37,098 nucleotides of DNA. Source: Archangiaceae bacterium. GTDB taxonomy: Bacteria > Myxococcota > Myxococcia > Myxococcales > Myxococcaceae. The position numbers and the translations under genes are program-made. The stretch spans positions 1 through 37,098 of the forward strand of contig JAACJQ010000305.1 of the NCBI GenBank assembly GCA_016879935.1, read 5' to 3'. Numbering within the stretch: the first letter of the stretch is position 1; each line of letters starts with the position of its first letter. Under the pieces are notes generated by a model. It was given only the letters and a program-made list of their open reading frames with translations, had not been told where the DNA came from and searched no databases. Shown piece after piece: positions 13,958-35,571 of the stretch.

Positions 13958-14767
13958 TCAGTAGATGAACGACACGCCGGCCCACGCGCCGAGTGAGTTC
14001 AGCACTTCGGAGGAGCGCTGGTTGATGAGCCCGCGCGCGAGCAATGCGTCGCTCGGGCTGAGCTCGCTCGCCCTGCAGCCAGGCGACATGGGCTGCGCGC
14101 CGCGGTTGAGTGAGAAGTCGGGCAGCTCGGCCGCGGAGCACCCGTTCACCTGGTCGACCCGCGCCGTGTAGACGACATCGCGCACCTCGAGTCGGAGGGC
14201 GACGTGCTGGCCGAGTGTCAGCCGAAAGCCAGCACCGATGGAGCCCATGAACCGAACACCTGTGTCGCCATACGTCGCCGGAGTGCTCGTCTCGGGCTTG
14301 AGCAGGTGTCGGGTGCCGCCGAGCCCAGCGCCCGCGTTGATGACGACGCTGAACTGCGCGAGCTGAGAGTCGAAGAGGGCGACCTTTCCGTAGAATGGCG
14401 CGACCTCGACGCCCGCCATGGCCGTCCACGTCCACAACAGCGACGCCGCCGACTGTGCCTCGATGCGCGCCTTGTCGATGAGCTCACCGTTGAAACGCGA
14501 CTCCTGGTTGTGCCAGTTGCCGCCACCCGAGAGCGTGAGCCCGAAGTGTTCGCGCAGGTGCCAGGTGAGCTGGCCCATGGTGCCGACGTGCTGCGTGTAC
14601 AGCCCGTTGAGCTGAGGCACCGCGGGGTACAGCGTGAACTCGAGTCGGCCCGCGTCGCTTACCGGCTTCTGCTCGACGACGTGCAGACCGACGTCGGGGT
14701 TCTTCAGTGGTGCGCCGTTGACGACCTGAGCCTGCGCGACGACGAGGGGAAGAATGAGTGCGAGCAT
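13958..14767 (-). CDS. Outer-membrane beta-barrel protein (TIGR04565-like)
   Basis: The 269-residue protein has a short hydrophobic signal (MLALILPLVVAQAQ) and a body of alternating amphipathic strands. The segment VEVAPFYGKVALFDSQLAQFSVVINAGAGLG matches what I remember of the myxobacterial outer-membrane barrel family TIGR04565 (a P-x-YGK...FD...G-G core). Other strands include LTWHLREHFGLTLSGGG and LTLGQHVALRLEVRDVVY. It ends in GAWAGVSFIY, an aromatic C-terminal residue as is usual for barrels recognised by BAM. It is convergent with the MXAN_5187-like gene, with four bases between stops. Confidence 0.83.
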   Translation of the reverse strand: MLALILPLVVAQAQVVNGAPLKNPDVGLHVVEQKPVSDAGRLEFTLYPAVPQLNGLYTQHVGTMGQLTWHLREHFGLTLSGGGNWHNQESRFNGELIDKARIEAQSAASLLWTWTAMAGVEVAPFYGKVALFDSQLAQFSVVINAGAGLGGTRHLLKPETSTPATYGDTGVRFMGSIGAGFRLTLGQHVALRLEVRDVVYTARVDQVNGCSAAELPDFSLNRGAQPMSPGCRASELSPSDALLARGLINQRSSEVLNSLGAWAGVSFIY

Positions 14768-26164: not shown

Positions 26165-26962
26165 TCAGACCTCTGGCGCGCGGGTGACGAACTCCACCAG
26201 CTCGGGCCACACCTTCCGCAGGGCATCGGGGCCGGCTTCACCGAAGAGCGCGACGCGGTCGACCGGCCGGGCCTGCCCGAGAAACTGCTCCGCCGCCCAC
26301 GCGGTGAGTGCGTCGGCGAGGCCGCGGGTCGGGCCTCCGAGCAGCTTCACCTCGTACGAGGCGAGCAGCTCCCTGGCGCTCTTCAGCTCGTTCGAGCGCA
26401 GCGCGACGACGGCCTTCGCGATGGTGAGGTGCGCCGAGCGGTCGAGCTTCAGCTGGTCGGCCTGGGTGATGCGCTGGCGGGCTTCGTCGAGCCGGCCCAG
26501 CAGCGCCGCCGTGAGCGCCAGGTACGGCACCACCATGCGCTCGAGGTCGAAGCTGAAGTTCGCCACCTTCATGCGCGACGCCTGAAGGAACGACGCCTCG
26601 GCTTCGGCCACGCGCCACAACGAGAACAGCGCGATGCCACGATTGAAGATGAACACGTGCGAGCGTGGGTACCGTTTGTGGCTGCGCTCGAACGCAGCGA
26701 CCGCTTCGGTGAAGCGGCCTTGATTCAAGAAGGTGATGCCCTCCACCGACTCGGCGTTCGCGCGTTTCATGCGAAAGAGGAAGAACGCGAAGGTGACGAG
26801 GCCGACGAGAATCGGAAACCACGCACCCAGCTGAACCAGGCCGTACGCCTGCGCGAGGCCGGCGAGGGCTCCGAAGAGAATGATGCCGACGATGAAGGCG
26901 ATTCGCTCCACGCGCGGAACAGAGCCGACGAGGCGCCAGCTGTCGACGCGCGTGTTCGCCAC
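26165..26962 (-). CDS. TPR-like membrane protein
   Basis: The 265-residue protein starts at GTG 26962. It has two adjacent membrane segments near the N-terminus (about 18-38 and 46-64: IAFIVGIILFGALAGLAQAYG and LGAWFPILVGLVTFAFFLF), then a soluble helical part with tetratricopeptide-like pairs (GITFLNQGRFTEAVAAFERSHKRYPRS, FNRGIALFSLWRVAEAEASFLQAS, KAVVALRSNELKSARELLASYE). It is therefore probably an inner-membrane adaptor with a cytoplasmic TPR domain. It is divergent from the redox operon across a 201-bp spacer, which holds one TGATCA at 26990 and no evident gene. Confidence 0.85.
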   Translation of the reverse strand: MANTRVDSWRLVGSVPRVERIAFIVGIILFGALAGLAQAYGLVQLGAWFPILVGLVTFAFFLFRMKRANAESVEGITFLNQGRFTEAVAAFERSHKRYPRSHVFIFNRGIALFSLWRVAEAEASFLQASRMKVANFSFDLERMVVPYLALTAALLGRLDEARQRITQADQLKLDRSAHLTIAKAVVALRSNELKSARELLASYEVKLLGGPTRGLADALTAWAAEQFLGQARPVDRVALFGEAGPDALRKVWPELVEFVTRAPEV

Positions 26963-27163
26963 GCGTGGCCCGCGGCGAAGAAGAAGGGCTGATCAACCCG
27001 GCTGCACACTTTCGTTCACGCCTCGCAAAGAAGGTGAGCCGGGGCCTGTAAAAGATGCGGGCTGAGGGCTCCCGTCCCCTCGAGCTGACACGTGCCACCA
27101 CCCTGGCTCCCCGCTGATCCACAGGCCTCGGGCGTGGGCACGGGCCGTGCTACCGGGCCGCAC

Positions 27164-27682
27164 ATGCACGCACGCATCGTCGGTCTGACCCTGCTCTGCA
27201 TCGCCAGTCTTGCGTGCACGAAGGCAGCGCCGTCGACCCAGTTTCGAGAAGGGCCGCTCGACCTCACGCTGCCGTCGTACCCCGACCGAACCAGCTTCAC
27301 GCTCTCGTCGCGCAAGGGCCGCGTGGTGCTGCTCGACGTGTGGGCGACCTGGTGTGAGCCGTGCCGCGAGTCGTTGCCGAAGTACCAGGCGCTGGCGGCG
27401 AAGCATGGCGGCAAGGGCCTCGACGTCGTCACCATCAACGTCGACGGCGAAGCGGCCGTGCCGAAGGCGATTCCCACCTTCGTGACCGAGACGAAGCTCT
27501 CGCTGCCCATCCTCCTCGACACCGACGCGAAGCTCTCGGAAGAGCAGCTGCGCGTGAAGGTGATGCCCACCGCCTTCCTCGTCGACCGCAAAGGTGTCGT
27601 TCGGCACGTGCACGAAGGCTTCGAGGGCGAGACGTTCGCGCAGCTCGAGCATCAGCTCGAAGGTCTGCTGGCGGAGCCATGA
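27164..27682 (+). CDS. TlpA/ResA-like thioredoxin-fold lipoprotein (first gene of redox operon)
   Basis: The 172-residue protein begins at ATG 27164 with a lipoprotein signal (IASLACTK, Cys18). It has a thioredoxin fold: RVVLLDVWATWCEPCRES with redox-active Cys64 and Cys67, DVVTINVDG, the AhpC/TSA-like PILLDTDAKLSEEQLRVK stretch, and VMPTAFLVDRKG holding the cis-Pro. Extracytoplasmic members of this family reduce disulfides, classically in cytochrome-c maturation. Here that role suits the operon's many Cys-rich heme-like proteins, but this is inference. It overlaps the next gene by ATGA (27679-27682). Confidence 0.92.
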   Translation: MHARIVGLTLLCIASLACTKAAPSTQFREGPLDLTLPSYPDRTSFTLSSRKGRVVLLDVWATWCEPCRESLPKYQALAAKHGGKGLDVVTINVDGEAAVPKAIPTFVTETKLSLPILLDTDAKLSEEQLRVKVMPTAFLVDRKGVVRHVHEGFEGETFAQLEHQLEGLLAEP

Positions 27683-27885
27683 TGCGAGTGTTCGTCGTCG
27701 TGCTGGTGACCGCGCTCTCTGGCTGCAGCTTCGTGTCTCCCGCGAAGCGCGCCACGCTCTCGAAGCGCTGCATGCAGTTTCAGGAAGACGGTGACGAGCT
27801 CGTGCTCGAGAACCACCTCATCGACAGCCGAGAAGGATCGTCAGGCGCACGCGGAGCCCGGGGCGGTGGATGCGGCTGCAACTGA
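27679..27885 (+). CDS. DUF4266 small lipoprotein
   Basis: The 68-residue protein (ATG 27679, or ATG 27682) has the lipobox LSGC (Cys16), then FVSPAKRATLSKRCMQF and HLIDSREGS, and ends in GGGCGCN. That ending, together with the SREGS-x-G pattern, is the signature I recall for DUF4266, a short lipoprotein usually next to DUF3570 and ApbE genes. It is anchored in the envelope, and the C-terminal CGCN could bind metal or form a thioether. It overlaps TlpA by four bases and the DUF3570 start by 16 bp (27870-27885), which indicates strong coupling. Confidence 0.9.
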   Translation: MMRVFVVVLVTALSGCSFVSPAKRATLSKRCMQFQEDGDELVLENHLIDSREGSSGARGARGGGCGCN

Positions 27886-28949
27886 CGCTCGCCGCGTTGC
27901 TGTCGGGCTCCGTCTCCTCCGCCGAGGTGGAGGTGTCGTCGAAGGTGCAGGTGTACGCCGACACCGGCCAGACGGTCGTCATCTCGCCGCACGTCACCGG
28001 CACCGTGACGCTGCCGTCGAAGACCTCGCTCTCGGCCACGTACACGGAGGACATCGTCTCGAGCGCGTCGGTCGACGTGCGCACCACCGCGAGCCCACGC
28101 ATCTTCGACCGCCGGCAGGAGGTCGACTTCGGGCTCGGCCAGCTCGTGGGCGGCTTTCAGCTCGGCGCCAGCTACGTGCACGCGCGCGAACGCGACTATC
28201 TCTCGAACGGTGGCTCCTTCTCGGCGTCGCGTGAGCTCTTCCAGAAGAACACCACGCTCTCGCTGCGGGCGGGCGTCATGAGCAACCTCGTGGGCCGCGC
28301 CGACGACCCGCTCTTTCAGGCGCCGATGACCGACTGGAGCGCCGACCTCGCCGTCACTCAAATCTTCACGCCCACCACCATCATGCAGGTGAACGCCACC
28401 GTCGCGCGCAGCAACGGCATGATGGCGAGCCCCTATCGCAAGGTGCGCGTGCCCATGCCCGACAGCGGCGCGGGTTCACTCGTGCTCTTCATGCCCGAGA
28501 ACGAGCCCTCGGAGCGGCTGCGCTTCGCCGGTGCGGTCGGCCTCAAGCAGGCGCTTGGTGACGTGGTGGTGCTGCACGGCGAGTACCGGCTCTATCGCGA
28601 CTCGTGGAGCGTGCTCTCGCACACCGTCGACGCGCGCGTGGTGTTCGACCTCTCTCCCATCACGGTGCGGCTGCGCTATCGCGGCTACACGCAGAGCCGC
28701 GCCTCGTTCTACCAGCCGGCCTACGACACGCTCCGGCTCTACCTCTCGAGCGACCGAGAGCTCTCGGCGTTCTCGTCGCACCTCTTCGGCGCGAAGGTCG
28801 AGTGGCAGCCGCTGCGCACCGAAGGCGCCGGCGCGCGCTTTCGTTTCGACGTGAAAGTCGAGGGCATGTACTTCCGCTACCCCGAGTTCCTGCGGCTCGA
28901 CCAGCGGTGGGCGCTCATCACCCAGGCCGGCATGGCGGTGGACTTCTGA
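27870..28949 (+). CDS. DUF3570 outer-membrane beta-barrel-like protein
   Basis: The 359-residue protein has a signal peptide (MRLQLTLAALLSGSVSSA). The start of the mature chain matches DUF3570: VQVYADTGQTVVISP and SLSATYTEDIVSSASVDVRTTASP, then DRRQEVDFG. The rest is strand-rich with aromatic ends of strands (YRLYRDSWSVLSHTVDARVVFD, YRGYTQSRASFYQP, GMYFRYPEF), ending GMAVDF with a C-terminal Phe, as in outer-membrane barrels. The family pattern near residue 64, which I remember as (S/T)GAS, reads SSAS here. The family's function is unknown; it travels with ApbE and DUF4266. The stop overlaps the next ATG (TGATG). Confidence 0.9.
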   Translation: MRLQLTLAALLSGSVSSAEVEVSSKVQVYADTGQTVVISPHVTGTVTLPSKTSLSATYTEDIVSSASVDVRTTASPRIFDRRQEVDFGLGQLVGGFQLGASYVHARERDYLSNGGSFSASRELFQKNTTLSLRAGVMSNLVGRADDPLFQAPMTDWSADLAVTQIFTPTTIMQVNATVARSNGMMASPYRKVRVPMPDSGAGSLVLFMPENEPSERLRFAGAVGLKQALGDVVVLHGEYRLYRDSWSVLSHTVDARVVFDLSPITVRLRYRGYTQSRASFYQPAYDTLRLYLSSDRELSAFSSHLFGAKVEWQPLRTEGAGARFRFDVKVEGMYFRYPEFLRLDQRWALITQAGMAVDF

Positions 28950-29872
28950 TGCGTGCGCTCGGCGTCGTCCTCGTCGCGGCCTCGGCGTTTCCCTGCGGCA
29001 CGCCTCCGCCTGCGACCCAGATTCCGTCACTCGACCAGGCCGCGTTCGAAGCGCAGGTCGAGCCCGAGCTGCTGGCGAGCTGTGCGTACAGCGGCTGTCA
29101 CGGTGCGCCGCTGCGACCGCTACGCCTGTACTCGCCCGCGGGTGAGCGCATCGCCGCGGGCCTGTCGAGCAACACGCCGCTGACGCCCGAGGAGCACCGC
29201 GCGAACTTCCTCGCGGCCTCGGCCGCTGCTGCTCCGTCGAGCGCGCCGTTGCCCGACCTCTTGCGCAAGCCGCTCCAGGAGGAGGCGGGCGGCGCAGGGC
29301 ACGGTGGCGTCGACCGCTACGGCCACAACGTCTACGCGAAGAAGGACGACGCGCGGTGGCGGCTGCTCGAGGCGTGGGTCGGTGGTGCGGCCTTCGATGG
29401 GGGCCTCGGCTCCGGTGGGGGTTCGGCAGGAGGAGACGCGAGCGGCGGTGGGGCGGGCGGCGGAGGCGCGGGTGGTGGCGAGCCGATGGCGGGTGGGGCG
29501 GCTTCGGGTGGTGGCGGCGTTGGTGGAGGCGCTGCAGTCGCCGCCTGTCTGCCCGCAGCGGGCGTCAGCTACGACCGCGTCGGCGCCATCGTCACAAAAG
29601 AGACCTGCGCGAAGGAGTCGGGCTGTCACACCCCCGAGAACGCGCCAGACGCAGGCTGCTTCGTGGCCGACACCTGCGAGACGTTGCGCAACGCCGGCTG
29701 TCTGCAGCGCGCGGTGCAGCCGTGCAATGCGAGAGGCTCGACGCTCGTTCGGTACACCGGCGCGCCGCCCTACGGCTTCAAGTCGCATCAGGGCGTGCTG
29801 TTGCCGATTCACCTGCGCGCCATCGTCGAGTGGATCGACGGCGGAGCGAGCTGCGACGGCGGTGGGCCATGA
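28949..29872 (+). CDS. Two-domain envelope protein with CX4CH and CX5CH motifs
   Basis: The 307-residue protein starts at ATG 28949, whose A is the last base of the previous stop. Its signal (MRALGVVLVAASAFPC) has an atypical lipobox AFPC. Domain one (about 28-148) carries C45-AYSG-C50-H51, domain two (about 205-307) C220-AKESG-C226-H227. A Gly-rich linker (about 151-196) separates them. The N-terminal part reads QVEPELLASCAYSGCHG, like the start of myxobacterial cytochrome-like lipoproteins where CX4CH replaces CxxCH. Heme attachment to CX4CH is known in multiheme cytochromes c3, but unproven here. The C-terminal part ends LRAIVEWIDGGASC, similar to other cytochrome-like proteins. The stop overlaps the next start (ATGA). 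Confidence 0.85.
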   Translation: MRALGVVLVAASAFPCGTPPPATQIPSLDQAAFEAQVEPELLASCAYSGCHGAPLRPLRLYSPAGERIAAGLSSNTPLTPEEHRANFLAASAAAAPSSAPLPDLLRKPLQEEAGGAGHGGVDRYGHNVYAKKDDARWRLLEAWVGGAAFDGGLGSGGGSAGGDASGGGAGGGGAGGGEPMAGGAASGGGGVGGGAAVAACLPAAGVSYDRVGAIVTKETCAKESGCHTPENAPDAGCFVADTCETLRNAGCLQRAVQPCNARGSTLVRYTGAPPYGFKSHQGVLLPIHLRAIVEWIDGGASCDGGGP

Positions 29873-31380
29873 CGGGTCTCGCGCTCTCGCTGGTGCTCGC
29901 CTTCGGCAGCCCCGGAGACTTCGCCGCGCCCGCGACGCTCGGTGGTGGCAGCGGCGGCCGCTTCACCGGCTCGCCCAACGAGAAGTGGGACTGCAGCGTC
30001 TGCCACGTCACCCCGAGCCCCAGCACCTTCACGCTCACCGCCCAGGGCCGAGACCTCGTCGCGCAGGGCTACGTCCCGGGAGAAACGTACGACCTCGAGC
30101 TGCAGTCGGCCGCGCCCGGCAAACGAAACGCGTTCGCCCTCGAGTTCGTCACCCGCACGGGCGTTCGTGCGGGCACCGTCAGCAACGCGCTCCCCCTGAT
30201 GGACGCGGCGCAGCGCGAGTACGAGTGCTCGGGCGTCGACCCGGTCGAGGTCTTCGAGGAGCGCGTCGCGCAGAGCTACGCCTGTGCGGTGTCGAAGTGG
30301 CGCCTGCGGTGGACGGCGCCTTCGGAAGACGTCGGCGGCGTCTCGCTCTTCGTGAGCGTCGTCGACGGTGACAGTGACTCCACCAACCACGGTGACGTCA
30401 CCACCAACCGGCTGCTCGGCATTCCCTCTCCGTCGACGGTGGGACAACGCGCGGCGAGCTGCTCGGCGGTGCCGGGAAACCTGCTCGCGGTGTTGCTGGT
30501 GCTGCTCGCCGGGCCGTCGTTCGCGAAGAAGAAGAAGGTGGCTGCGCCGCCTGCGCCCGTCGAAGTGCCGGCCGAACCGAGTGCACCGCCGCCCGCTCCA
30601 GCGCTTGCGCCAGCCGTCGAGCCCGCGCCACCGACTCCGACTCCACCTCCTCCACCGATGGCCGCCGTCGCCGCACCTGCTCCGGAGACCGACGTTCCCG
30701 CGGCCCTCGAGCTCGAAGCACGCCTCGGGTTTGGCTACCGCTCGTTCTCGTTGTCGTCAGCGAGCTACGCGACGCCGTTTCGAGTCGGCTTCGCGTCATT
30801 CGGTGGTGCGGTGAGCCTGACTGCCTTCCCCATGCGGCTCCTGAGAACGTCGGTGCTCGAAGGCCTGCACGCGCAGGCCACCTACGCCGTCGGGTGGGCG
30901 CCGCAGAACCTCGGTCTGGGCAGCGCGCAGGTGCTGCCCTCCGACTTCGTGCTCGCGCTCGGGTACCGCTTTGGTGGTGCGGTAGTGCAGGTCGCGCCGC
31001 GCGCGACGTGGCGAATGCTCATCGGTGGCGTCGAACGCCACGCGCTCTTCGACGACGCCTTCTTCCAGAGCGTCGGAGGCGAGCTCGTCGCGTCGCTTCA
31101 GCTCGGTGCCGTGCGGCTCATGGTGGCGCCCCAGGCGGGCGCGGTGCTCGACGCTGGAGAGCAGGCGACGCGGGCGTACGGCCGCAACCTGGGCGGGTTG
31201 ACCTTCGGGGGGCGTGCGGGCGCCAGCCTGGCGTTGTCGAAGTCGGTGACGCTCTCACTGGCGTACCAGTTGACCGTGACGCGCGCGTCGCTCGCCGGCC
31301 GGGGGACGCGAAACCTCGAGGCGCTCTCGTTCTCCGACACGATTCACGGCGCGACCCTCTCGGTGGGGCTGGAGCAGTGA
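29869..31380 (+). CDS. Reeler-like CxxCH domain fused to an outer-membrane beta-barrel
   Basis: The 503-residue protein starts at ATG 29869 with a signal peptide (MTGLALSLVLAFGSPG). Domain one contains a canonical heme-c site CSVCH (42-46) and a Reeler-like beta-sandwich (about 52-185: GYVPGETYDLELQS, FALEFVTRTGVRAGTVS, WRLRWTAPSEDVGGVSLFVSVVD). Residues 198-223 are Cys, a hydrophobic stretch (204-219) and KKKK, resembling either a MYXO-CTERM-like anchor or an internal signal peptide. A Pro/Ala-rich linker (224-275) leads to a strand-rich barrel (280-503: LEARLGFGYRSFSLS to GATLSVGLEQ). An in-frame GTG at 30469 could start a separate barrel protein. The single uninterrupted frame argues for a fusion. 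Confidence 0.85.
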   Translation: MTGLALSLVLAFGSPGDFAAPATLGGGSGGRFTGSPNEKWDCSVCHVTPSPSTFTLTAQGRDLVAQGYVPGETYDLELQSAAPGKRNAFALEFVTRTGVRAGTVSNALPLMDAAQREYECSGVDPVEVFEERVAQSYACAVSKWRLRWTAPSEDVGGVSLFVSVVDGDSDSTNHGDVTTNRLLGIPSPSTVGQRAASCSAVPGNLLAVLLVLLAGPSFAKKKKVAAPPAPVEVPAEPSAPPPAPALAPAVEPAPPTPTPPPPPMAAVAAPAPETDVPAALELEARLGFGYRSFSLSSASYATPFRVGFASFGGAVSLTAFPMRLLRTSVLEGLHAQATYAVGWAPQNLGLGSAQVLPSDFVLALGYRFGGAVVQVAPRATWRMLIGGVERHALFDDAFFQSVGGELVASLQLGAVRLMVAPQAGAVLDAGEQATRAYGRNLGGLTFGGRAGASLALSKSVTLSLAYQLTVTRASLAGRGTRNLEALSFSDTIHGATLSVGLEQ

Positions 31381-31382
31381 CG

Positions 31383-32390
31383 ATGACCTTCACCTCGAAG
31401 AACAGGACTTCCATCATGCGTACGTCACTCGTGATTGCGGCGTTGGGTGCGTTGCAGGCGTGCTCGTCCATCGACAACCCCACGCTCTGCACCCCGGGGA
31501 ACTGCGGGGGAGGCGCTGGGGGCGGTGCGTCGGCGACGGGTGGTGGCTCGAGCAGCGCAGGCGGTACGGCCTCGGCGGGCGGCGGGAGTGGAGGCGGCTC
31601 CGTGACGGCAGGGGGAGCCGCGACGGCGGGCGGCGCCAGTGGAGGAGGTCTCGCGACGGGTGGCGGCACCGCAAGCGCAGGTGGAGCGGCCACTGCGGGC
31701 GGAACCGCAGCGGCTGGAGGAGCCTCGTCAGCCGGCGGAGCGGCGTCGGCGGGTGGCACTGCCTCGGCCGGCGGGGCTGCGACGGGCGGAGGCTCGGCGT
31801 GCGCCGAGGCCTGGCAGTGCGGCGCGTGGCAGCCCTCGACCGCGGGCATGGCGACTCGCACCTGCATCGACACCAACTTCTGCGGCTCCACCGCCACCAA
31901 GCCGAGCGAGGGGCCCACGGCCCTGCCGCCACTCAATGACAACTATTTCCGCTGTAACGTGCAGCCGATTCTGGCGAAATCGTGTGCAATGATTGGCTGT
32001 CACGGCACCCTCGACACCTCGCGGCCCTTCCGGGTCTTCGCGCGCGGCCGGGAGCGAAACGCAGAGACCGTCACGGCCACCCATGCCTGCCCGCCCACCC
32101 AGGGGCAGTCGTTTCAGCTCTATCTGCCCACCGTCGCGGCCACGGCGAGCTGTGATGCTGCGACCCCGTTGTCGGCCAACGAGCGCCAGCTGAACTTCGA
32201 CAACGCGCGCTGTTTTGCACTCGGCGTCGCCGCCGCGCAGAGCGAGCTGCTCCAGCAGCCCTTGCGCGGCAACGCCACCTTCACCCATCGCCAAATCAAG
32301 CCGTGGACGACGTCGAACGCCGACTACCAGGTCGTTCTCAACTGGTTGAATGGCATGACGCTGGCGACCTGCAACAGCGGCACGAACTGA
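31383..32390 (+). CDS. Gly/Ala-rich lipoprotein with CX4CH cytochrome-like domain
   Basis: The protein starts at ATG 31383 (GGAG 8 nt upstream, 2 bp after the previous stop) or ATG 31416. The signal ends LGALQAC (Cys27 from 31383). Residues about 42-138 are a low-complexity GGA/SAGG linker. The C-terminal domain (about 140-335) starts with a Cys-rich SACAEAWQCGAWQ module, then YFRCNVQPILAKSC-AMIG-CH (201-207), a CX4CH heme-like site, and continues to the pattern VVLNWLNGM typical of cytochrome-like lipoproteins. It shares the CX4CH and long Gly linker with the gene two positions upstream. It is predicted to be anchored in the envelope. The heme content is inference. Confidence 0.84.
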   Translation: MTFTSKNRTSIMRTSLVIAALGALQACSSIDNPTLCTPGNCGGGAGGGASATGGGSSSAGGTASAGGGSGGGSVTAGGAATAGGASGGGLATGGGTASAGGAATAGGTAAAGGASSAGGAASAGGTASAGGAATGGGSACAEAWQCGAWQPSTAGMATRTCIDTNFCGSTATKPSEGPTALPPLNDNYFRCNVQPILAKSCAMIGCHGTLDTSRPFRVFARGRERNAETVTATHACPPTQGQSFQLYLPTVAATASCDAATPLSANERQLNFDNARCFALGVAAAQSELLQQPLRGNATFTHRQIKPWTTSNADYQVVLNWLNGMTLATCNSGTN

Positions 32391-32399
32391 GGAGCGACC

Positions 32400-33119
32400 A
32401 TGAAGACCCGACTCACCGTGCTCAGCGCCGTCGTTCTCGCCACCACGGCCCTCGCCTGGAACCACGAATACGCGTGGCATGACGCCGCTGCGCCCACCGT
32501 CGCCGGAAAGCCCGGCGGTGGCAGCCTCTTCGGCACCGGAGGCCAGTCGGAGGGCGGCGTGCAGTGCGCCCACTGTCACACCCCGAAGGGCACCAACCCG
32601 GCCAACCCGCTCAAGGTGCTCGTCACCTTCAACCCCGCGCTCACCGGCGCTCCTGCGTGGACTGGCAGCGTCGACGGCTTCACGCAGCAGGCTGGCCGCT
32701 ATGCGCCAGCGACCAACTACACGGTGAACGTGGCGCTGCTGAACGAGCACTTCACCTGGCCCGACGGCGGCCCGCAGGACAACAACTTCGCGGCGGTCTT
32801 CGAAGACGCCAGCGGCAACCGGGTCGGCACCCTCACCACCGACACCAGCATCACCACCTCGAACTGCCCCACGACGAGGCCAGTGCCCGGCCCCACGACG
32901 GGCACGACGCACATGTACAAGAATTGCGACCTCATCTTCAGCCGGTTTCCGGCGACAGGCCTGAGCGGGTGGTCGTTCACCTGGCGTTCACCGGCTGACG
33001 CCGGCGTGGTGACGATGTTCCTCGGTGCCGTCGACGGAAATGGAAACGACCGCACGCGCGGCCGTGACGGCGGGCCCGACGACGACGTGGTGATGGGGAA
33101 GGTCGTGCTGGCGCCGTGA
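32400..33119 (+). CDS. Reeler-like exported protein with CxxCH heme site
   Basis: The 239-residue protein has GGAG 5 nt before ATG 32400 and a cleavable signal (MKTRLTVLSAVVLATTALA). The heme-c site CAHCH (56-60) follows GGSLFGTGGQSEGGVQ, then a Reeler/choice-of-anchor-V-like beta-sandwich (about 70-235: LKVLVTFNPALTG, YAPATNYTVNVALLNEHFTWPDGGPQ, GWSFTWRSPADAGVVTMFLGAVDGNGND). The layout matches the first domain of the 29869 fusion, so two Reeler-like cytochromes exist in one operon. The end GRDGGPDDDVVMGKVVL has acidic residues that could bind metal. Its stop TGA overlaps the ApbE start as GTGA. Confidence 0.85.
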   Translation: MKTRLTVLSAVVLATTALAWNHEYAWHDAAAPTVAGKPGGGSLFGTGGQSEGGVQCAHCHTPKGTNPANPLKVLVTFNPALTGAPAWTGSVDGFTQQAGRYAPATNYTVNVALLNEHFTWPDGGPQDNNFAAVFEDASGNRVGTLTTDTSITTSNCPTTRPVPGPTTGTTHMYKNCDLIFSRFPATGLSGWSFTWRSPADAGVVTMFLGAVDGNGNDRTRGRDGGPDDDVVMGKVVLAP

Positions 33120-34135
33120 CGTGGCTGGTCGCGCTGGTGTTGGCGCAGGCGGGGGCCACCGATGGCGGCCTCGACCGCCGCACCCGCACGCTCATGCACA
33201 CTGAGGTGACGCTCGCGCTGCCCCGCTCGGTCGAGGCCGGGGTTCGTGAAGCAGCGTTCTCCGAGGGTTTCGGCGTCTTCGAGCACATCGACGCAGAGCT
33301 GAACGAATGGCGGCCGGGCTCGGCGCTGGCTCGCATCAACGGCGCAGATGGTGGAACGCCGGTCGAGGCGAGCGCCGAGGTTTGTGAAGTCGTCTCCCTC
33401 GCGCTCGAAGGCGCGCGCCGAACGAACGGCTTGTTCGACCCGACGTGGGCCGCGCTGCGCGACGTGTGGCGGTTCGGCTCGGCCGAGAACGGCGTGGTGC
33501 CGACCGACGCCCAGGTGAAGGCCGTGTGTCCCCTCGTCGGGTGGAAGCGGGTGACGGTGACTCCACGAGGTGATGGTGGCTGCGCCATCACGCTCGCGCC
33601 GGGCACGACGCTTGGGCTCGGTGGCGTGGTGAAGGGGTGGGGCGTCGACCGGGTGGTGGCGGCGTTTCGTGCGCGCGGCTTGAAGGACTTCTTCGTGCAG
33701 GCCGGCGGCGACTTGTACGTGGGCGGGCTGCTCGAGGGGCGGCCGTGGCGCGTCGGCATTCGCGACCCGCGTGGCCCGAAGTCGTCGTCGTTCGCGCGCC
33801 TCGAGCTCACCGACGCGGCCTTCTCGACGAGCGGTGACTACGAGCACTTCTTCGTGCGTGACGGCGTGCGGTACCACCACCTCATCGACCCACGCACCTG
33901 TCGGCCTGCGCGCGCCTCGGTGAGCACCACCGTGCTGGCGAAGCGCGCCACCGACGCAGAGTTCCTCACCAAGGCCGGCTTCATTCTCGGCCCGAAGGAC
34001 GGGCAGCCGCTCGCTCGCACGTTCGGTGCCGCGGCGGTGTGGGTGACGCCCGATGGCCGTGTGCACGCGACGAAGGGGCTCGAGACGAAGCTCGAGGTGT
34101 GGCCCCTCAGCGGCTTCGACGGCGGAGCGCCCTGA
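33116..34135 (+). CDS. apbE: FAD:protein FMN transferase (ApbE family)
   Basis: This 339-residue protein starts at GTG 33116 with a short signal-like N-terminus (MTWLVALVLAQAGA). ApbE hallmarks are RTLMHTEVTLALP (M-x-T near the start), GLFDPTWAALRDVW (G-x-FDPT, 105-118), GLGGVVKGWGVDRV (167-180, FAD-binding Gly loop), VQAGGDLYVGG (194-204), FSTSGDYE (236-243) and YHHLIDPRT (253-261). ApbE transfers FMN from FAD to a Thr/Ser on exported proteins by a Mg-dependent reaction. It likely acts on a protein of this operon or elsewhere in the envelope; no clear SGATxT target site is evident in its neighbours. It is the last gene; its stop abuts the convergent lipoprotein's in TGATCA. Confidence 0.95.
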   Translation: MTWLVALVLAQAGATDGGLDRRTRTLMHTEVTLALPRSVEAGVREAAFSEGFGVFEHIDAELNEWRPGSALARINGADGGTPVEASAEVCEVVSLALEGARRTNGLFDPTWAALRDVWRFGSAENGVVPTDAQVKAVCPLVGWKRVTVTPRGDGGCAITLAPGTTLGLGGVVKGWGVDRVVAAFRARGLKDFFVQAGGDLYVGGLLEGRPWRVGIRDPRGPKSSSFARLELTDAAFSTSGDYEHFFVRDGVRYHHLIDPRTCRPARASVSTTVLAKRATDAEFLTKAGFILGPKDGQPLARTFGAAAVWVTPDGRVHATKGLETKLEVWPLSGFDGGAP

Positions 34136-34735
34136 TCAGGGGCAGTCGCCGCCGAGCTGCGCGACGACGTTCTTCGTCTGCACCCCGAACAGCACGTTTG
34201 CCGTGAAGCAGAGGTCGGCCGAGCAGCTGCCCTCGGCGACGAGCTTCAGCTTCGTCGGCTTGCAGGTGTTGATGAGCTTTCGAAACGGCTCGACCTGCGT
34301 GCGCTCCACCTCGTCGAGGCAGGCGTTGAGCGCGAGGAAGACCTGCGTGCCGTCGGCGACCTCGAGGCGGTTCGACGTGCACGAGGTGCGCAGCGACTGC
34401 TTCTCGAGACCGACCGTGCAGGTGGCTTCGACGGTGAGGCCGCTGAGCGTGACGGTGCCCCTCGGCATGCTGCACCCCGCGCCCGGCAGCACGTCGCCGT
34501 ACTCGGCCACCAGCTCGAACGTGCCCGACCGAATGCAGCCCTGCGACAGGTCGATGCCGGCCTCCTTCAGGTCTTTGCCGAAGTCGATGACGCCAGCGCC
34601 GAAGGGTTCGCCGTTGCAGAGCTTCGTCGAGTCGATGCCGACGGGCGTGGTGGTGGCCAGCTTTCGGTCTTTCACCTCGATGGTGGTGGGACCGCAGCTC
34701 GCGAGGGCGAGAAGGAGCGGGAGAAGTCGACGCAT
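34136..34735 (-). CDS. Lipoprotein of unknown function
   Basis: The 199-residue protein from ATG 34735 has a lipoprotein signal (MRRLLPLLLALASC, lipobox LASC at 11-14). The mature chain carries many Cys residues (at LCNGE, GCIRS, GCSMP, TCTVG, TSCTS, NACLD, NTCKP, SCSADLC and DCP), so several disulfides outside the cytoplasm are likely. It is beta-strand rich in the middle (TVTLSGLTVEATCTVG) with a helical later segment (ACLDEVERTQVEPFRKLINTC). I recognise no family. It is divergent from the DUF4124 gene. Confidence 0.82.
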   Translation of the reverse strand: MRRLLPLLLALASCGPTTIEVKDRKLATTTPVGIDSTKLCNGEPFGAGVIDFGKDLKEAGIDLSQGCIRSGTFELVAEYGDVLPGAGCSMPRGTVTLSGLTVEATCTVGLEKQSLRTSCTSNRLEVADGTQVFLALNACLDEVERTQVEPFRKLINTCKPTKLKLVAEGSCSADLCFTANVLFGVQTKNVVAQLGGDCP

Positions 34736-34816
34736 CAGGTCAGCAAACCCGGAAATGCCGCGCGGCGCGAGGTGGAGCGTGAATATCGTGAGAGTCGTTT
34801 CGTCACGGGCCCACCC

Positions 34817-35380
34817 ATGCGCCACCTCGTACTCGCCGTGTTCATCAGCGCTCCCGCCTTCGCCCAGGTCTTCTCGTGGGAAGACAAAGACGGGGTTCAC
34901 TACACGAACGACGCCGCGTCGGTGCCGAAGGGCGCGAAGGTGAAGAAGCTCGAGACCGATGACCGGCCGTCGAGCGCGCAGCCGGCGCCGCAGGTCGAGG
35001 TCGCGGCGGCTCCAGCGCCTTCTGCCGCGCCCCCCTCGCCTGCGAACCCGAGCGTGGAACGTGAGTGGAGAGACCGCTTCATCGCGCTCAACCGCGCCAT
35101 CGCGACGAAGAAGCAGGAGCTGAACGCGCTCGAGGTGAGCCTGCCGAACAAGGTCGACTGCGTGCCGCAGCAGCGGGCGGTACAGCCGGCACCGGGCACC
35201 GCTGCGCAGCCCTTCGCCGCCACCACGACCCGCTGCGTGCCCAACTCGATGTACGACCGCATCAAGCTGCAGATTGAACAGAAGCGCGTCGAGGTGAAAG
35301 ACGCCGAGAACGACCTCGAGCAGCTCGACCGCCGCGCCTCCTTCGAGGGCGTGCCGCGGGAGTGGCGCCGCGGCTGGTGA
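34817..35380 (+). CDS. DUF4124-domain exported protein with coiled coil
   Basis: The 187-residue protein from ATG 34817 has a signal peptide (MRHLVLAVFISAPAFA) and an N-terminal DUF4124 motif (QVFSWEDKDGVHYTND, about 17-32). This is followed by an Ala/Pro-rich linker (about 50-78) and a helical, charged C-terminal half (REWRDRFIALNRAIATKKQELNALE, MYDRIKLQIEQKRVEVKDAENDLEQLDRR) predicting a coiled coil. Two Cys flank a spacer in VDCVPQQ and TRCVPNS. DUF4124 proteins are periplasmic or envelope proteins of unknown role. Repeats rich in GAGTC begin directly after the stop codon. Confidence 0.85.
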   Translation: MRHLVLAVFISAPAFAQVFSWEDKDGVHYTNDAASVPKGAKVKKLETDDRPSSAQPAPQVEVAAAPAPSAAPPSPANPSVEREWRDRFIALNRAIATKKQELNALEVSLPNKVDCVPQQRAVQPAPGTAAQPFAATTTRCVPNSMYDRIKLQIEQKRVEVKDAENDLEQLDRRASFEGVPREWRRGW

Positions 35381-35571
35381 CCCGAGTCGTCGTGACGGAG
35401 TCGTCGTGGCGGAGTCGAACTGGGGAAACGTGAGACGAAGCCCCGAGCGAGGCAGAGGAGCGGTGGCTCCTGAATGACGGCTTGAACTGAGCCACGGCGA
35501 CGTTGCCTCGCGACGGCGGAGTCGAACTGGGGAAGTCGACATCGTGCGCTGACTGCGGTTTACGCGCGTGC
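35381..35571. repeat. Intergenic GAGTCG repeats, 20-bp direct repeat and a hairpin
   Basis: Directly after the DUF4124 stop come CCGAGTCGTCG, ACGGAGTCGTCG and GCGGAGTCGAAC. The 20-mer GGCGGAGTCGAACTGGGGAA occurs exactly at 35408-35427 and 35515-35534, 107 bp apart. Between them, GTGGCTC (35463-35469) and GAGCCAC (35489-35495) form a perfect 7-bp stem with a 19-nt loop. The block lies between two co-directional genes and holds no gene. It could be a terminator or attenuator region or a small repeat element. Confidence 0.65.

Follow-up and report, generated by a model that had tools for sequence, protein, structure and literature searches.

The window, a stretch of 37,098 nucleotides from an Archangiaceae bacterium, carries at positions 27164-34135 an operon composed of four published core genes (TlpA-like, DUF4266, DUF3570 and ApbE) and four genes that form two copies of an undescribed pair. 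The core was already known; the heme-equipped version of this flavinylation system appears to be new. The operon probably encodes an outer-membrane flavin/heme redox module that would move electrons between the envelope and the outside. Known outer-membrane electron conduits consist of hemes strung through a barrel. Here, by contrast, the barrel chain itself is predicted to bear flavins, which a thiol relay apparently supplies with electrons, and a pair of small heme proteins, apparently new and present in two copies, joins them.

All eight genes lie on the plus strand, overlapping or no more than 9 nt apart, and the nearest large ORFs on either side run on the opposite strand (26238-27122 and 34136-35542, both minus). 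TlpA and DUF4266 overlap by ATGA, DUF4266 and DUF3570 by 16 nt, and DUF3570 and the fourth gene (g4) by TGATG, with the ATG of g4 at 28949. The remaining junctions are ATGA (g4/g5), gaps of 2 nt (g5/g6) and 9 nt (g6/g7), and GTGA (g7/ApbE). Export signals, either signal peptides or lipoboxes, are apparent by eye in all eight products. The original prediction of eight tightly packed one-strand genes with apparently exported products is thus upheld by the ORF coordinates and translations, and the association of DUF3570 and DUF4266 with ApbE, which it had also put forward, is correct and published (PMC8238504). Families were assigned by Pfam and NCBIfam profile matches, and the features are as follows.

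27164..27682, plus strand: TlpA/ResA-like thioredoxin lipoprotein, CEPC active site at 27353-27364, lipobox SLAC (PF08534 Redoxin, 4e-20; best NCBIfam relative ResA; CxxC and lipobox from the translation)
27682..27885 (alternative start 27679), plus strand: DUF4266 small lipoprotein, lipobox LSGC (PF14086, 3e-15)
27870..28949, plus strand: DUF3570, modelled 16-strand outer-membrane beta-barrel and predicted ApbE substrate (PF12094, 1e-40; AlphaFold2; Foldseek)
28059..28070, plus strand: predicted flavin site 1, SSAS within DIVSSAS, acceptor Ser67 (aligned with the sites of relatives)
28083..28094, plus strand: predicted flavin site 2, TTAS within DVRTTAS, acceptor Ser75 (aligned with the sites of relatives)
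28949..29872, plus strand: g4, predicted diheme protein, CX4CH at 29081-29101, CX5CH at 29606-29629, Gly-rich linker (family alignment)
29869..31380, plus strand: g5, choice-of-anchor V (Reeler-like) protein, CSVCH at 29992-30006 (NF041895, 1e-11)
30460-30525, plus strand: Cys and hydrophobic stretch of g5 beyond the Reeler-like domain, followed by a Lys/Pro-rich linker and, from about 30706, a putative beta-barrel
31383..32390, plus strand: g6, Gly-rich lipoprotein-like protein, CX4CH at 31983-32003 (paralogue of the first domain of g4)
32400..33119, plus strand: g7, Reeler-like protein, CAHCH at 32565-32579 (NF041895, 3e-6, sub-threshold; aligned with the N-terminal part of g5)
33116..34135, plus strand: ApbE, FAD:protein FMN transferase, GTG start (PF02424, 1e-70)

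The core has been described by Méheust et al. 2021 (PMC8238504), who reported DsbD clusters with ApbE together with DUF3570 (227), thioredoxin-like (183) and DUF4266 (221) genes, and 316 further clusters with ApbE, DUF3570, thioredoxin-like and DUF4266 genes but no DsbD. The window resembles these clusters in having the four core genes in one operon, two acceptor positions in DUF3570, a CXC end on DUF4266 and DsbD elsewhere in the genome; it differs in that glycine is missing at both sites, four heme-type genes are inserted and DsbD is not at the locus. The presence of DsbD and cytochrome-assembly genes elsewhere in the genome makes a thiol source and heme attachment possible. ApbE scores 238.7 bits against PF02424, including the catalytic region, matches solved ApbE structures (4e-40) and keeps the TSG-YE and YHH-IDP motifs. 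DUF4266 ends in a GGGCGCN dithiol tail (27871-27882) with the CXC ending, whose codons overlap the DUF3570 start codon; this tail is conserved in relatives. The window genome also encodes a second ApbE (G000 contig C177, L047:9440-10468), 57% identical, with neither a DUF3570 nor a recognised acceptor gene adjoining at its locus.

The original prediction had seen no obvious flavin acceptor. This is not borne out, since ApbE is known to act on DUF3570, whose two sites are both present here; they were overlooked because glycine is replaced in each. In Chlorobium luteolum, DUF3570 is flavinylated by its own ApbE at two [S/T]GA[S/T] sites (PMC8238504), and the ApbE substrate motif has been given as D-x-x-[S/T]-G-A-[S/T] (PMC12052999). 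The two sites of the window, DIVSSAS (Ser64-Ser67) and DVRTTAS (Thr72-Ser75), fit this motif except at the glycine, so that the [S/T]GA[S/T] positions are occupied as SSAS and TTAS. Among 40 aligned DUF3570s outside the Myxococcota family f11 (see below), all have at least one [S/T]-x-A-[S/T] site in this region and 30 have two, the glycine position being occupied in most cases by G, S, T or A; the 31 sequences aligned for modelling show no variation in the Ala and Ser of the first site. That both window acceptors are serines and that glycine is absent at both sites counts against flavinylation. A Gly-to-Ala change in another ApbE substrate left about 50% flavinylation, and serine acceptors were served less well by ApbE than threonine (PMC12052999). 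We predict from these alignments that DUF3570 of the window is an ApbE substrate at Ser67 and Ser75.

A natural comparison for the function of the flavin part is provided by family f11, where the flavin sites, the CGC tail and usually ApbE are gone and the barrel and a monoheme gene are kept. In all eight f11 genomes the DUF3570 lacks both flavin sites and has no CXC anywhere in frame, and its N-terminus carries what is left of a DUF4266 head (8/8, domain E 6e-6 to 1.5e-3). We found no comparable match to the DUF4266 head in the other 42 DUF3570 entries, and no separate DUF4266 gene in any of the eight f11 genomes searched. ApbE is absent from six of these eight genomes, as against its presence in 9/9 Myxococcota genomes with a site-bearing DUF3570 and in 15/15 other site-bearing genomes that lack a visible ApbE at the locus (Fisher p 0.002 and 3e-5 for ApbE versus site retention, relatedness not corrected for). 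As f11 is one lineage, this co-loss may be a single event. The co-loss argues that the glycine-less sites are in use and that the thiol tail, the flavin sites and ApbE work together, and the fusion suggests that DUF4266 and DUF3570 touch.

Structure prediction of DUF3570, proposed beforehand as a check, yielded a barrel with 16 strands by hand count (AlphaFold2 with the 31-sequence alignment; pLDDT 90.1, pTM 0.83). Its Foldseek matches are outer-membrane barrels, namely OmpG, BamA, BtuB and MtrB of the Mtr complex. Both flavin sites fall in the loop that connects strands 3 and 4, which is modelled with low confidence. On the flavin side of the model the loops measure about 3, 12, 2, 2, 31, 4, 25 and 8 residues, and those on the opposite side about 4, 2, 4, 2, 3, 2 and 10. 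With periplasmic termini, the strand order (rather than the coordinates) would place the flavin loop outside. The operon resembles porin-cytochrome conduits of the MtrCAB type, which also combine an outer-membrane barrel with heme proteins and whose MtrB is among the fold matches. It differs from them in having flavin sites on the barrel chain and single-heme domains, with one or two heme motifs per operon protein in place of a multiheme cytochrome, and we claim no sequence homology.

All four inserted genes carry heme-type motifs: CAYSGCH and CAKESGCH in g4, CSVCH in g5, CAMIGCH in g6 and CAHCH in g7. The first domain of g4 is homologous to g6, and neither protein has a family match in Pfam or NCBIfam. 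All 28 of 28 sequences of this protein family, drawn from several families, keep the two Cys, the motif His, a further His distal to it and a Trp, so the motifs are not there by chance. A Cys pair with its His and a second conserved His is the pattern of a c-type cytochrome, and the conserved residues fit bis-His heme binding. At eight loci of the Polyangiaceae/Labilithrix type the motif is widened, reading CX10-13CH in place of CX4CH, and the other invariant residues stay; these widened g4-like genes lie upstream of DUF4266 (L053, L059, L060, L062, L064, L065, L072 and L073). Strong matches to the g4/g6 domain (>100 bits) occur in 7 of 17 DUF3570-bearing genomes and in 0 of 178 others (p 1e-8), a strong result though not an unbiased one, as the profile was built from DUF3570-linked loci and 21 candidates were scored per genome.

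Near DUF3570, a CX4CH gene is followed by a Reeler-type CxxCH gene twice in the window, twice in L028 and once each in L029, L031 and L034. Such pairs also occur where the core is missing, at five loci of G068 and one of G106, and in L088 a pair has DUF4266 fused behind it. This recurrence indicates that the window carries two copies of a repeated two-gene module, of which we found no description in the literature searched.

Gene order was compared across 195 genomes, whose contigs were scanned for loci with the DUF4266 profile, the eight-member DUF3570 alignment being too variable for scanning. The exact single-strand order of eight genes was found in the window genome only. The possibility that the order is shared with no relative, which would have weakened the original prediction, nevertheless does not hold: DUF4266-DUF3570-g4-g5 is conserved in G106 and G068 of the same family, with ApbE downstream and convergent, and two genomes from a different family have CX4CH/Reeler pairs next to DUF3570. 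The choice-of-anchor V domain is present in 96 of the 195 genomes, and we considered that its adjacency to DUF3570 might be due to chance. We set this aside, as in five genomes only a few kb separate the domain from a DUF3570 that bears sites; our own rough estimate of the chance of such adjacency is about 1% (20-kb neighbourhood, 9-Mb genome, four copies).

The core is found with other redox partners elsewhere. A match to a cytochrome-copper type II monooxygenase protein precedes tlpA at six loci from Gammaproteobacteria, of which three are truncated by the end of the contig. A protein combining a cytochrome with a copper type II monooxygenase C-domain stands directly before the core tlpA at L067:5011-7764, L070:358-2640 and L075:6864-9455. 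In L032, L037, L054-L056 and L058 the core occurs together with HzsA-like multiheme genes. TlpA-like and ApbE matches share one open frame at L035:5606-6985, L036:6560-8026 and L089:11-1405 (all minus strand), the last with the same HzsA-like multiheme set. That one core is combined with varying redox ends speaks for a role in electron supply.

A flavin/heme electron path at the envelope, as originally predicted, remains the best reading; the link within the core is published, and the view that the acceptor is not obvious has had to be dropped. In the scheme that we infer for covalent flavin and heme in the window strain, for surface exposure and for the order and direction of electron flow, periplasmic ApbE would attach FMN to Ser67 and Ser75 before DUF3570 folds into the outer membrane, as judged from the family. 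After insertion, the model and topology would put both flavins on the outer face or at the mouth of the 16-strand barrel. A thiol relay may feed them, from inner-membrane DsbD to the TlpA-like thioredoxin and on to DUF4266 with its CGC tail. This lipoprotein probably docks onto the barrel or inside it, given its fusion to DUF3570 in a sister family. Electron transfer between the flavins and some partner outside the cell would fall to the two heme pairs, in each of which a CX4CH lipoprotein-like protein is combined with a Reeler-type CxxCH protein. The core may thus supply electrons in a general way, with surface ends that can be exchanged, such as the cytochrome-copper monooxygenase or HzsA-like multiheme proteins found elsewhere. 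At the locus itself we found no partner substrate and no inner-membrane link. More tentatively, the Gly-rich CGCN tail of DUF4266 could reach through the DUF3570 barrel and reduce two FMNs on its outer face, which would pass electrons to interchangeable redox proteins at the surface, in this operon the heme pairs and elsewhere copper or HzsA-like enzymes; we regard this detailed version as possible though doubtful.

Other explanations were weighed against the redox module. The operon might serve a dedicated cytochrome maturation, in which TlpA, being ResA/CcmG-like, keeps the CX4CH apocytochromes reduced at their cysteines, with ApbE/DUF3570 having a separate function on the same transcript. 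ResA is indeed the best NCBIfam relative of TlpA, and CX4CH and CX5CH sites may need special handling. TlpA, however, also adjoins DUF4266-DUF3570 at loci whose surroundings yielded no heme gene (e.g., L050, L057 and L066), it is fused to ApbE in L035 and L036, and the genome has a general assembly system at another place, so that we hold dedicated maturation to be unlikely. We give a similarly low probability to the glycine-less sites being no longer flavinylated and the barrel serving hemes alone, as presumably in f11. The absence of glycine from both window sites would agree with this, as would the retention of DUF3570 and the monoheme gene in f11 without flavin sites or DUF4266. Yet the window retains the sites, the CGCN tail of DUF4266 and ApbE; many ApbE-linked relatives also have the glycine replaced, and Gly-to-Ala is tolerated in another substrate (PMC12052999).

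An inward or metal role, with the module oxidising or binding an outside metal or electron donor (e.g., iron or copper) for uptake or detoxification, also seems improbable to us. CXC tails are able to bind metals, and several gammaproteobacterial cores adjoin a cytochrome-copper monooxygenase. The VIT1 iron transporter occurs in 25 DUF3570 clusters (PMC8238504). Against this, Pfam and NCBIfam identified no metal transporter or regulator in the operon, and the partner enzymes elsewhere vary.

Some of the pair proteins are apparently displayed on the cell surface. Against the choice-of-anchor V family (NF041895), g5 narrowly passes the cut-off of 42 with a score of 45.2 and g7 falls below it with 27.6. 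The window proteins share with this family a CxxCH near the N-terminus and a Reeler-like body, and differ from it in the sub-threshold score of g7 and the fusion of g5 to a putative barrel. This barrel is read from the sequence pattern alone, the whole-protein model of g5 being unusable (pLDDT 40); the same Reeler-barrel fusion is found in L028 and L029. In myxobacteria, the MYXO-CTERM tag sorts proteins to the cell surface (PMC11980579). The Reeler relatives in L034, L028 and L029 have the domain followed by a Cys, a membrane helix and Arg, as in MYXO-CTERM; g5 of the window has the Cys and helix and no Arg cluster, and g7 also lacks a complete tail. At L028:6815-8629 and L029:5936-7570 (both minus strand), a MYXO-CTERM-like tail, a second signal peptide, a Lys/Pro-rich linker and a putative barrel follow with no stop between, possibly as a polyprotein; g5 has one hydrophobic stretch where these relatives have two. 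One internal MYXO-CTERM case, MXAN_5598, has been noted (PMC11980579). L028 and L029 resemble such internal fusions (MXAN_5598, TraA/TraB gene pair) in having a surface-tag protein in frame with a barrel. They differ in their cargo, a CxxCH Reeler-like domain, and the window copy in lacking the Arg cluster and second signal peptide. At L088:720-2024 (minus strand), a choice-of-anchor V protein with a C-terminal membrane helix and Arg cluster is continued, in the same reading frame, by a DUF4266 lipoprotein that has a GGCACN tail.

At loci of the Polyangia type and of f11, SH3-barrel genes separate DUF3570 from the monoheme gene. A region at 14156-14566 (minus strand) of the window, not linked to the operon, weakly matches an accessory outer-membrane barrel that lies next to DUF3570 in f11 (27% identity, 1e-6).
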